The notes under the pieces were generated by a model, which worked only from the letters and a program-made list of their open reading frames with translations, had not been told where the DNA came from and ran no database searches. Below, in pieces: positions 42,236 to 46,398 of a DNA stretch of 64,000 nucleotides. Both the position numbers and the translations under genes were made by a program. Positions within the stretch are counted from its first letter, which is position 1, and every line of letters starts with the position of its first letter. Origin of the DNA: Methanococcoides vulcani (GTDB lineage Archaea > Halobacteriota > Methanosarcinia > Methanosarcinales > Methanosarcinaceae); NCBI RefSeq assembly GCF_900111645.1, contig NZ_FOHQ01000001.1:124001-188000 (forward strand), written 5' to 3'.

Positions 42236-42928
42236 ATGTATGAAATATTTAACTCTCGTGAAAATTGTAAAATTGAAGTGAATTATCGTGATTTGAAACC
42301 GAAAATCATTTATTTGCAGACTTTTTCCAACGATGATCAACTTTATTTTGTGAGAAAATATGCAAACATATGTGAAAAATCTGTTTTGATTTTATCAGAT
42401 AATGATTCATTTAATCGTTTTAAAAGTCTATGCTTGAGTAGTCCTATATGGGGATTTCCTGATTTATCAGTTTATGATGGCAGTATTGAAAACTTTGATT
42501 TACTTTATGAAAGAAAACCATTTCAAAAATATATTAACATTGAAACTTTAAGTGATGGTGATTTACATCGTCTTCTATTAAAATTAGAAGGTCATGGTAG
42601 GAAAAGAAATGAAATTTGTTTAATCATCGATGATTTTGCTTCAATGTTATATAGACTTAAACGTGATTTAAAAAATGATCGTTCTAAAAATATGGAATAT
42701 AAAATTCTTGCCAATGGACTTGGTTACAATTTTTCTTTAATTTGTAGTGGAAATCCTATTGATAAGAAACTACTTGAGTGGATAGATAGTTTTACGATCT
42801 TAATTGAAAATCGACATGAAAAATCCTATGATGTGACTTATGAAAGCAAGGGTGACAATTATGAAGATGAGCGTGACACTTTTAAAAATACACCATTAGA
42901 AAACATAAATTTATCATTAAACAGGTAA
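42236..42928 (+). CDS. Unknown island protein with Walker-B-like segment
   Basis: 230 aa, strongly AT-biased codons. EICLIIDDFASMLYRLKRD (about residue 123) resembles a Walker B strand, and KSVLILSDNDSF an earlier beta strand of a RecA-like fold, but there is no P-loop, so any ATPase activity is doubtful. C-terminus acidic. Next gene is a HEPN-motif protein about 125 bp downstream, same strand. Confidence 0.6.
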   Translation: MYEIFNSRENCKIEVNYRDLKPKIIYLQTFSNDDQLYFVRKYANICEKSVLILSDNDSFNRFKSLCLSSPIWGFPDLSVYDGSIENFDLLYERKPFQKYINIETLSDGDLHRLLLKLEGHGRKRNEICLIIDDFASMLYRLKRDLKNDRSKNMEYKILANGLGYNFSLICSGNPIDKKLLEWIDSFTILIENRHEKSYDVTYESKGDNYEDERDTFKNTPLENINLSLNR

Positions 42929-43055
42929 ATAAAATTCCGATCCATCACTAAAATTACTGAATTATTTATTTTCTTTTTTCTCAAGACCACGAGCATTTTT
43001 GTTTGTTTCTCTAAACTGTACATAAGTGCAAGAAGATACCATTGTTGGAGCATTA

Positions 43056-44240
43056 ATGATGACAAAAGAAATTATTAATCTGAAAAACCGAATATCTCTA
43101 GGCCCAGAGAACCGAGAGGATATTGGATTTGCTTCCATCTATTATCTCCCATTTAGATTCGAAATTGGTAAAATTATTAAATATAATTGTTCTTTTGGGA
43201 AAAATATCATTGATATATGGATATATAATGAGGTATCGTCTGACCTTCCAGATTCCCAGTCATTTCTTGAGGCAATTAAACCATTAGATTCGGGCTTGAA
43301 TCGATTAACATCAAAATTGCTGATTCATTTTAAGAATCCAACGATAGAGAACGAAGATTTTACTAAAATAGTCGAGTGTGTCAAAACAAATCAGACACAA
43401 TCAGAGATAGAAGAAACGTATACGTATCTAGTAGCAATTTCGGCATTAGATCGTCTTATGATTGCCTGCAACGGCGCAAGCCCTCACATGTTCAGCGGAA
43501 GAATGTATGAGAAAATACCCATTGAAGAATTGTTTAACGAATTTTTACATTCAGAATATATTATCATTTCTCCGAAAGGATCCTCGTTATCCACAAAACA
43601 AGCCGAGACTATCTTAAGTTCTGTTCCAACTAGAAGGCAGCGATTGGATAGCTGGACTCGTAGTGTGCAGATGGAAAACGACGAAGTCATACAAGATGTC
43701 CAGGAAATCCTCACCAAGTATTTAGATAGGATGTTGTTATATGAATTGTTATTCGAGGCAAATTGTAAAGCAAGAGCACAGGACTGGCGATCTGCCTTTA
43801 TTCAAATGGCAATGGCTTTTGAAAGTGCTATTTGGTTGATTCTTGATTTCGAATTCAGAAAAAAGATTTTAAAAGTCAAGGATTCGCTCACAGATGATAC
43901 TGAAAAAAAAATATTGACAGAAAAATATATTGAAACAAGTATTAATAAATTTGGATTGAATCTTGGTGTGACACTGCTTACTACTACATTGCCATTTTTG
44001 TTTTTTGACGGTGATGAGATTTTAAAACCAAATGAGATAAAGGATGCTATCAAGGCAATCTCCATACGAAATAAACTAGTTCACTCAAAAAAGACGAAAG
44101 GTGGCGATTATCATTGGTCTGTATATGGATCTAAAGATTTAACAGAATCCTATAGGACACTAAATAAATTAACATTAAAACTTGCAGGATTAATTAGAAA
44201 GAGAATCGATGAATTGCCTGAGAAAAAAGAGGAAAATTGA
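43056..44240 (+). CDS. HEPN-motif protein, possible toxin/defence RNase
   Basis: 394 aa from ATG at 43056, chosen for GGAG 5 nt upstream. The C-terminal domain (about residues 240-385) is helical and contains ISIRNKLVHSKK, an R-x4-H motif typical of HEPN ribonucleases; the N-terminal part is mixed with no recognised family. Arrangement resembles ApeA-like proteins. AT-rich, inside the accessory island. Confidence 0.65.
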   Translation: MMTKEIINLKNRISLGPENREDIGFASIYYLPFRFEIGKIIKYNCSFGKNIIDIWIYNEVSSDLPDSQSFLEAIKPLDSGLNRLTSKLLIHFKNPTIENEDFTKIVECVKTNQTQSEIEETYTYLVAISALDRLMIACNGASPHMFSGRMYEKIPIEELFNEFLHSEYIIISPKGSSLSTKQAETILSSVPTRRQRLDSWTRSVQMENDEVIQDVQEILTKYLDRMLLYELLFEANCKARAQDWRSAFIQMAMAFESAIWLILDFEFRKKILKVKDSLTDDTEKKILTEKYIETSINKFGLNLGVTLLTTTLPFLFFDGDEILKPNEIKDAIKAISIRNKLVHSKKTKGGDYHWSVYGSKDLTESYRTLNKLTLKLAGLIRKRIDELPEKKEEN

Positions 44241-44394
44241 CTTCAAGGCACCCACTTACACGATTGAAGACAGGATTCTGATGATATCAGAAAGAAGATT
44301 CTTGCTATCAGTTATACATAATGGAAAGAAATTGAATTATGAAAAAGGTTCGGTAAAGATGTTGATTGATTACTCAACAAAAATTCTCATCTAA
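44209..44394 (+). CDS. Short ORF overlapping the end of the HEPN gene
   Basis: 61 aa, overlaps the preceding gene by 32 bp. YTIEDRILMISERRFLLSVIHNG is amphipathic. No family recognised. It could be a decayed remnant or a small partner of the HEPN protein. Confidence 0.3.
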   Translation: MNCLRKKRKIDFKAPTYTIEDRILMISERRFLLSVIHNGKKLNYEKGSVKMLIDYSTKILI

Positions 44395-44442
44395 AAGTTT
44401 GTTGCTATTCTGCTAGTTGCTTTTTTATTGAAAGTGTCAAAA

Positions 44443-44450
44443 TATTTATA
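44443..44450 (+). promoter_or_regulatory. TATA box upstream of second HEPN gene
   Basis: TATTTATA preceded by A-rich sequence, about 50 nt before the ATG at 44499. Confidence 0.45.
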
Positions 44451-44498
44451 GTATCTAGTGTATACTTTTTACATATTTTAAGATAAAATGTGATTTTT

Positions 44499-45922
44499 AT
44501 GGTTGATAATGAAATAATCAAAGTAAATGCTGAAATAGTTCCATCTGAAGATTATGAAATCGACAGAGATGTTGATGGATTTTCCAAAGCACTAGAATTC
44601 TATCTCACATCTTTAGGATTGCCTGCCAAGAATGTTCTTGCTGAAATTAAACAAAGGCAAAAAGTCATTGCAAACATGCCTGACGTCATTGAATCATTGC
44701 CTAATTCAAATATGGAAGAAGCATATTATATTTCTAAATTTATTGCTTCTTGTGGTGTTGGTTTATTTGATGCAGCTTTGAACTATCTTTGGAATGAAAC
44801 AATTGTAAATTTAAGGCAAAAAATTATACTTTTTGATCTAAATTACTTCTTTGATGCATTAAATAAAGAAAATTATAATGATGCAGACGATTTAACGAAA
44901 TTGAAGATTGGGAGTTAATTAGTGGTTGCCAAAAAGTAGGTATCCTTTCTGATATTGGATACAAACATTTAGATTATATAAGAGATATGAGAAATTTTGC
45001 AAGTGCTGCTCATCCAAATAACACTAAGTTGACTGGTTTGATGTTGTCAGCTTGGCTAGAAACATGTATCTTGGAAGTGCTTTCAAAAGAACCCTCTACT
45101 TCTGCTTTACAAATCAAAAAGCTATTGCCGAGTATTAGAAATGAGATATTGACAGAATCAGATGCTGCCCCAATAAATGCAAATATTGAACATCTTCCAC
45201 AGGATCTAGCAAATTCATTATTATCAGCATTATTTGGGATGTATACAAAAGAAGATGTTGAAACTAGTGCAAGAAGAAATATTGCATATATTGCAAAAAC
45301 CGCTTGGCAGAAATCAGACCTAAAAAGCAAAAAAAATATTGGTTTAAGGTATTCACATTTTTCAGCAAATGCACAAGTTGCTCGAAAAAGGTTAGCCAAC
45401 GATTTTTTAATTTTAGTTGATGGGTTATCATATTTAACGGATGATCAAAGAAGTATAGAATTAAGAGAATGTTTAGAAGCACTCCAAACGGCGCATTTTA
45501 GCCGTAACAATTTCTATAATGAAGAACCACATGCGAAAATAATCTTTTTCTACATACGTGATAATCCAAATATACCTGAAAATGTCCGTTCAATATATGT
45601 TTCTTCTATTTTAACTTGTAAATTAGGAAATTGGTATGGATACTCTTACGGGGCTGAAACTTATTATGATGAAATGATTGATAGGTTCAATGACAGTGAA
45701 ATTGTCGAATTATTGTTGCTATTAAAAGACAAAGAGTTTACTATTGCATTTGAAGACCCGGATCGAGCACTTCGATTTAGAAATGTTCTATCGAATTTAG
45801 AAGAAAATACTACAAGTGAAGTATTAAAGCAGGCTCTTGAAAAAGTGAAAGAGAGTTCAAACAATGATTTACAAAATGGAAGAGCTTATCTTAACATAAG
45901 AACCATGCTAGAATCTGTTTAA
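44499..45922 (+). pseudogene. Second HEPN-motif gene, split by a -1 frame change
   Basis: Two adjacent frames make one protein of about 475 aa. Frame 1 (44499-44918) ends DADDLTKLKIGS; the continuation in the other frame starts at about 44902 with IEDWELISGCQKVGILSDIG and runs to 45922. One extra A in the AAA at about 44900 would restore ...DLTKIEDWELI. After the junction comes YIRDMRNFASAAHPN, an R-x6-H HEPN-type motif. No slippery heptamer is evident, so a real indel or a sequencing error is likelier than programmed frameshifting. Confidence 0.65.
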
Positions 45923-46130: not shown

Positions 46131-46164
46131 CCCGGAAGATCATGCGAGGGGTAAGATTCGAACC
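46131..46164 (-). repeat. tRNA 3'-end fragment, copy 2 (att-like remnant)
   Basis: Minus strand GGGTTCGAATCTTACC followed by CCTCGCATG. 30 of 34 positions match 7911-7944. Lacks the rest of a tRNA. It lies about 65 nt from the tRNA-Ser gene and closes the accessory island. Confidence 0.65.
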
Positions 46165-46228
46165 CATGAAAAATTAAATTTTTAGAAAAGTGGCATTTTT
46201 ACGAGATACCTATAACCCTAAAATAGCA

Positions 46229-46347
46229 CGCCGGGGTTGGGATTTGAACCCAAGCACTCCGTTAGGAGAAACAGGTCTCGAGCCTGCCGCGTATAGACTC
46301 CGCGGCTGTAAATTCACCGTTGGATTAGTCCGCTCTGCCACCCCGGC
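46229..46347 (-). tRNA. tRNA-Ser (anticodon CGA) with about 33-nt extra segment in the D-arm
   Basis: Acceptor GCCGGGG/CCCCGGC, anticodon arm GCAGG-CTCGAGA-CCTGT (CGA), variable arm TCTCC/GGAGT, T-arm TTGGG-TTCAAAT-CCCAA and discriminator G are intact. The D-arm reads GCA-GAGCGGACTAA-T, then 33 additional nt (46323-46291), then GC-G. Removing them gives a normal 86-nt tRNA-Ser with D-stem GCA/TGC. The insert may be a noncanonical intron; I could not draw a canonical bulge-helix-bulge at these boundaries. A GCCGCG/CGCGGC hairpin spans the 3' junction. Confidence 0.85.
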
Positions 46348-46398
46348 ATTGTTGTTTCTGAAGGTGTTTATGGGTTATATAGGTGTCGAAAAAGCGGA

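Follow-up and report, generated by a model that had tools for sequence, protein, structure and literature searches.

A predicted bulge-helix-bulge-type intron in the D-arm of tRNA-Ser(CGA) in Methanococcoides and related archaea

The tRNA-Ser(CGA) gene of Methanococcoides vulcani carries 33 surplus nucleotides in its D-arm, and we are highly confident, from comparison with related genomes, that they represent a bulge-helix-bulge (BHB)-type intron predicted to be excised to give a functional tRNA-Ser(CGA). The extra sequence is, as judged from these alignments, a conserved intron that well over 100 species share at an identical site. It is not a chance insert, since it sits at one site in dozens of species, varies in length around a pairing core that stays constant, and is missing cleanly from others.

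The gene and its surroundings

The window, i.e., the whole 64,000-nt stretch of DNA analyzed here, corresponds to positions 124001 to 188000 of contig C5 in a 2.31-Mb genome assembly that is 99.95% complete. Nucleotides 46347 to 46229, on the (-) strand, make up a complete tRNA-Ser(CGA) gene that reads GCCGGGG TG GCAGAGCGGACTAATCCAACGGTGAATTTACAGCCGCGGAGTCTATACGC G GCAGG CTCGAGA CCTGT and onward, with the surplus sequence in the D-arm (Table 1). The acceptor, anticodon, variable, and T arms are all intact; the coordinates, strand, anticodon, surplus of 33 nt, and soundness of these arms are as given in the initial annotation of this DNA, made from the sequence alone. An element resembling TATATAA or TTTTTAA is found within the upstream 60 nt in most of the intron-bearing relatives compared.

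Table 1. Features of the tRNA-Ser(CGA) gene and its predicted splice motif (window coordinates)
Feature	Position	Strand	Basis or remarks
tRNA-Ser(CGA) gene	46229..46347	(-)	119 nt with intron, 86 nt spliced; stems with compensatory changes across relatives
5' exon, positions 1 to about 21, end ..GCGGACTA	46326..46347	(-)	Predicted canonical cut after nucleotide 2 of the UAA bulge; equals intronless orthologues
Predicted intron, 33 nt, ATCCAACGGTGAATTTACAGCCGCGGAGTCTAT	46293..46325	(-)	Comparison and motif
3' exon, start ACGCGGCAGG..	46229..46292	(-)	Comparison with the intronless form; spliced form
Anticodon CGA	46278..46280	(-)	Sequence; ARAGORN on the spliced form
TATA box TATATAA, tRNA promoter	46375..46381	(-)	Similar element upstream in most intron-bearing relatives compared
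Central helix, exon strand GGAC	46328..46331	(-)	Paired in 74/74
Central helix, intron strand GTCT	46295..46298	(-)	Paired in 74/74; GUCU, GUCC, or GUUC across species
5' bulge UAA, predicted cut UA↓A	46325..46327	(-)	3 nt in all 74 distinct genes
3' bulge AUA, predicted cut AU↓A	46292..46294	(-)	Runs into an internal loop; AUA, AAA, UAA, or CAA in 74 genes
Inner (intron) helix, 5' strand UCC	46322..46324	(-)	h1 to h3 paired in 74/74, compensatory changes
Inner (intron) helix, 3' strand GGA	46299..46301	(-)	Pairs with UCC

Gene finders handle the locus poorly. With introns switched off, its default, ARAGORN reports no tRNA there, and its introns-on call of Arg(TCT) is an artefact. The Rfam tRNA model scores the locus at 24.4 bits, below the gathering score of 29, because the intron sequence is taken as the 5' acceptor strand, giving a false 5' half. 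Once the 33 nt are deleted, the remaining 86-nt tRNA-Ser(CGA) is recognized by ARAGORN. The gene is easily overlooked, both because ARAGORN misses or mislabels it and because Methanosarcina-like genera, which seem to have replaced it, leave it unseen in work on Methanosarcina.

Several features nearby were noted in passing. A T-arm-like remnant (ATGGGTTCGAATCTTACCCC, window 46150-46170, (-) strand) lies some 60 nt beyond the 3' end of the gene and may be what is left of a different tRNA or of a former integration site. Four open reading frames without a Pfam match (42236-45922, (+) strand) adjoin the 3' side of the gene and may form an island next to it. Elsewhere in the assembly, one and the same tRNA-Cys(GCA) opens four contigs (C7, C8, C10, and C13), which points to assembly breaks at a repeated tRNA.

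The splice motif and predicted cut sites

The motif was analyzed in 74 distinct intron-bearing genes aligned by fixed offsets. The initial annotation had been unable to build a canonical BHB; a core does exist (UAA, GGAC/GUCU, UCC/GGA, and AUA), and only the outer helix is missing. In the core, a 4-bp central helix joins the 5' exon end to the 3' end of the intron, with GGAC paired to GUCU, GUCC, or GUUC (296/296 pairs). The 5' bulge, next to the inner helix, is 3 nt long throughout, with the variants UAA, AAU, CAA, AAA, UAU, and AAG. The inner helix has at least 3 bp in every distinct gene, pairs h1 to h3 being present in 222/222 cases, so that all seven core pairs are found in 518/518 cells. 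On the 3' side, the 3-nt segment (AUA, AAA, UAA, or CAA) is followed in the 74 genes by position 23 and then GCG. The intron is 16 to 39 nt long, and the shortest examples extend scarcely beyond the motif and a small loop.

The pairing is specific to this register and is partly supported by covariation. Overall pairing, 0.905 in the aligned register, was no higher than 0.522 once the 3' arm had been slid by 1 to 3 nt, and inner pairs h1 to h5 are 0.827 paired, compared to a mean of 0.710 and a maximum of 0.754 in 2000 shuffles. Compensatory changes in the inner helix run from U-A to C-G, C-G to U-A, and C-G to G-C, with UCC/GGA, UCUUC/GAAGA, CUCUG/CAGAG, and UCG/CGA as two-sided variants. The central helix varies on the intron side only, and shuffles also score 1.000, so it adds no two-sided covariation. 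A second register, GACU/AGUC with the 5' bulge AAU, was rejected: it fails wherever precursor position 21 is A or C, and GGAC/GUCY never fails.

The outer side of the motif is looser. In the strict hBHBh' form, the 3-nt 3' bulge is followed by a stacked outer helix of exon sequence; here C16 stands opposite C23 and no such helix forms. Closure could come from G15-C25/C16-G24, 2 bp beyond a 4-nt bulge, or from the D-stem pairs G10-C25/C11-G24. From its sequence pattern, the motif is classed as a relaxed, bulge-helix-loop (BHL) type. Energies calculated with ViennaRNA for the window gene are -48.2 kcal/mol for the minimum-energy fold, -43.6 with the tRNA arms forced, and -38.3 with the motif. 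The motif is absent from the minimum-energy fold in the window species; in several relatives, the isolated region folds with GGAC/GUCC. A GCCGCG/CGCGGC hairpin pointed out earlier is present. It lies outside the conserved motif, occurs in Methanococcoides-like sequences only, and is missing from most lineages, and it was rejected as a splice signal.

In a BHB, the cuts expected of archaeal EndA follow the second nucleotide of each 3-nt bulge. Such canonical cuts (GGACUA↓AUCC..GUCUAU↓ACGCGG) would release nucleotides 46325 to 46293 as the intron and leave a mature D-arm reading ..GGACUAACGCGG.., and a cut shifted by one nucleotide downstream on both sides would give the identical mature sequence. 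Predicted splicing yields GGAC[U/A/C]A-A[C/U]-GCG in 74/74 distinct genes, and GGACUAACGCG stands at the D-arm of 43/45 intronless genomes. By standard tRNA numbering (C16, G18, G19, A20, C20a, U20b, A21, A22, and C23), the intron would fall at about 21/22, in the D-arm, rather than at the canonical 37/38, one nucleotide 3' of the anticodon.

The initial annotation had placed the insertion two nucleotides farther downstream, between positions 23 and 24, and had proposed deleting 46323-46291. Removal of 33 nt does give the 86-nt tRNA; as to the frame, comparative evidence favors 46325-46293. Excision of the same intron at 46323-46291 would leave U23 and a 3-bp D-stem, the D-arm reading GGACUAAUGCGG, and its A12-U23 pair makes the D-stem drawn by ARAGORN slightly better; with the favored cut, C23 faces A12 as a weak D-stem pair, and C23 is also found in 43/45 intronless relatives. 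The alternative junction misses the step between nucleotides 2 and 3 in both 3-nt bulges. Its 5' end falls at a U that is a base of the inner helix (U-A in 73/74 genes, C-G in 1), and in Methanothrix it would place GGACAAUU or GGACAAGC before GCG, unlike in the intronless orthologues, whereas with canonical cutting all 74 genes would have A21-A22. We consider the downstream junction improbable and retain 46325-46293 as the predicted intron.

Distribution among relatives

Used as a query, the spliced sequence matched 77/100 relatives, the match being interrupted at the same point in three families (f1, that of the window, f2, and f4) and continuous in two others (f3 and f5). Across 186 genomes of the order, the pattern of the intron form was found in 80 and that of the uninterrupted form in 45, the latter in two other families, so that relatives lacking the insert, which the initial annotation had proposed to look for, are indeed available; no genome among the 186 has both forms. 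Neither form was matched in genera g2, g9, and g10. The D-arm intron also occurs in 43/50 genomes of the Methanothrix family and, with a pattern that was too strict there, in at least 4/7 genomes of a third order, that of a peat Methanomicrobia bin. The carriers include Methanococcoides, Methanolobus, Methanohalophilus, Methanohalobium, Methanosalsum, and Methanomethylovorans, together with Argoarchaeum, an ANME-2 cluster bin, and Methanothrix/Methanosaeta; Methanoperedens, ANME-2c, Methanophagales, and Mnemosynella do not carry it. Far from being a one-off, the insert is widespread in Methanosarcinaceae, Methanothrix, Argoarchaeum, and others. The Methanosarcina-like genera g7 and g11 are without the intron, and in the seven genomes examined (L126 to L132), their Ser(CGA) has a different, intronless backbone that resembles Ser(GGA). 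This suggests that the intron-bearing gene was replaced there by an anticodon-switched Ser(GGA)-like paralogue.

The distribution bears on two other explanations of the insert. Were the gene a decaying pseudogene with an insertion, it would be natural that standard tRNA finders miss it and that genera of the same family have replaced it, and UCG could be read by Ser(UGA) with a modified wobble base. The remaining serine tRNAs of the genome are GGA, UGA, and GCU; the search for a second Ser(CGA) copy, recommended in the initial annotation, found none, the window gene being the only Ser(CGA)-like sequence in the 99.95%-complete assembly. Decay is hard to reconcile with stem pairing kept through two-sided changes (the acceptor, anticodon, variable, and T stems covary among intron-bearing genes), with a kept promoter, and with retention of the gene in 10/10 other Methanococcoides genomes searched, and we regard it as very unlikely. 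That the mature tRNA keeps the 33 nt, with an enlarged D-arm, appears slightly less likely still. In its favor, the insert can form hairpins; against it, the length of the insert varies while the splice motif is constant, and the genes of two families read exactly as the spliced form does. A noncanonical intron in a retained gene, the reading proposed at the outset, is strongly supported by the conserved site, the motif, and the compensatory changes.

Some relatives have further departures from the usual gene structure. In Methanothrix (L156, L157, L160, L168, L172, L180, L191, L200, L215, L223, and others), Ser(CGA) has a second conserved intron of 29 to 32 nt beside the D-arm intron, located in the T-loop between ..GGGTTCAAA and ATCCC..; this genus is not among the euryarchaea with multi-intron tRNAs in Table 1 of a previous survey (PMC4033280). 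Two peat or wetland Euryarchaeota/Methanomicrobia bins (L204 and L207) combine a 16- to 17-nt D-arm intron with an extra variable-arm stretch that may be another intron. The Ser(CGA) gene of one member of the Methanocellales (L213) has no D-arm intron and carries an anticodon-loop insert resembling a 37/38 intron. In this part of the archaeal tree, introns seem to be readily acquired by Ser(CGA). Four genomes of family f2 (L079, L080, L082, and L098) have degenerate tandem or interrupted copies of the intron-bearing gene, broken by sequence that contains TCGAAAATCG..CGATTTTC and is possibly a mobile element targeting the tRNA.

Splicing enzymes and comparison with known systems

The Methanococcoides genome encodes a single EndA-like protein of about 351 residues with two PF01974 domains, as well as two RtcB genes. 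The best match of this EndA among solved structures is the α'2 enzyme of Archaeoglobus fulgidus (1r0v, E = 3.5e-34), and its loop, FYGKPLDKQRLQLSL, is shorter than that of the CSL-grafted 3p1y and is without the long insert of the latter. Neither the (αβ)2 or ε2 subunits nor the CSL or ASL loop of broad-specificity enzymes was found in the genome, and the protein is, by sequence, of the narrow α'2 type without the Crenarchaea-specific loop. Among 12 further genomes sampled, carriers and noncarriers, 11 have two PF01974 matches; the exception (G188, the L204 genome) has a single match in a short open reading frame at a contig end. In every genome that yielded the loop and catalytic region, the loop is short and neither the Tyr nor the His region is missing.

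In the pathway that we propose, the pre-tRNA would be transcribed from its TATA promoter, and the homodimeric α'2 EndA would recognize the 3-nt 5' bulge and the 4-bp GGAC/GUCU helix, with the relaxed internal loop in place of an outer helix. The enzyme would cut at UA↓A and AU↓A, and RtcB would then join the exons into the 86-nt tRNA-Ser(CGA), its D-arm again reading ..GGACUAACGCGG.., which would serve as a functional tRNA.

The euryarchaeal α4 and α2 enzymes have been described as acting on canonical BHB motifs only, with Korarchaeum as the only α2 archaeon that has noncanonical introns (PMC4033280); euryarchaeal tRNA introns have been described as occupying the canonical position (PMC4090602), and α'2 EndA as narrow in specificity (PMC6379350, PMC12397907). 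The predicted Ser(CGA) intron contradicts this usual summary of where such introns occur. We lean toward the view that it is an ancient, lineage-wide, relaxed D-arm intron processed by a plain α'2 EndA without a specificity loop. If so, the rule confining α'2 enzymes to canonical BHB introns at position 37/38 fails in Methanosarcinales, Methanothrix, and relatives. The intron would offer a natural substrate for testing the rule linking EndA architecture to intron position in >100 species, the sampled members of which have α'2 enzymes, and also in the culturable Methanococcoides, Methanolobus, and Methanohalophilus. A literature search, with supplements and GtRNAdb outside its scope, found no published report of this intron; the BHB model of tRNAscan-SE 2.0 includes some euryarchaeal noncanonical introns, and so it is quite possible that the intron is already listed in GtRNAdb or in specialist papers.

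Three known systems invite comparison. BHB introns at noncanonical positions (e.g., 20/21, 22/23, and 25/26) are known from Crenarchaeota, Nanoarchaeota, Thaumarchaeota, and Korarchaeum (PMC4090602). Like them, the Ser(CGA) intron is short, lies in the D-arm, and has a BHB-type core with a relaxed outer side and an exon-junction helix formed by the 5' exon and the 3' end of the intron. Unlike introns of the crenarchaeal type, which are many and scattered, it occupies one site in one gene, kept across several families, and its host is a euryarchaeal methanogen whose α'2 EndA has no Crenarchaea-specific loop. With the canonical euryarchaeal introns at 37/38, present in this genome in the Tyr gene and in a 109-nt gene resembling elongator Met, the Ser(CGA) intron would be expected to share both its splicing enzymes and its type of splice motif, but it is in the D-arm and has no proper outer helix. 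A biochemical parallel is with the BHL-like motifs that homodimeric EndA is able to cut (PMC8707768); the A. fulgidus enzyme excises BHL introns at 37/38 from full-length pre-tRNA (PMC6379350). These substrates share with Ser(CGA) one 3-nt bulge, a 4-bp helix, an internal loop opposite, and a homodimeric enzyme, so that the predicted intron fits a known biochemical capacity, although they are anticodon-loop or engineered substrates, whereas Ser(CGA) would be a natural D-arm one.
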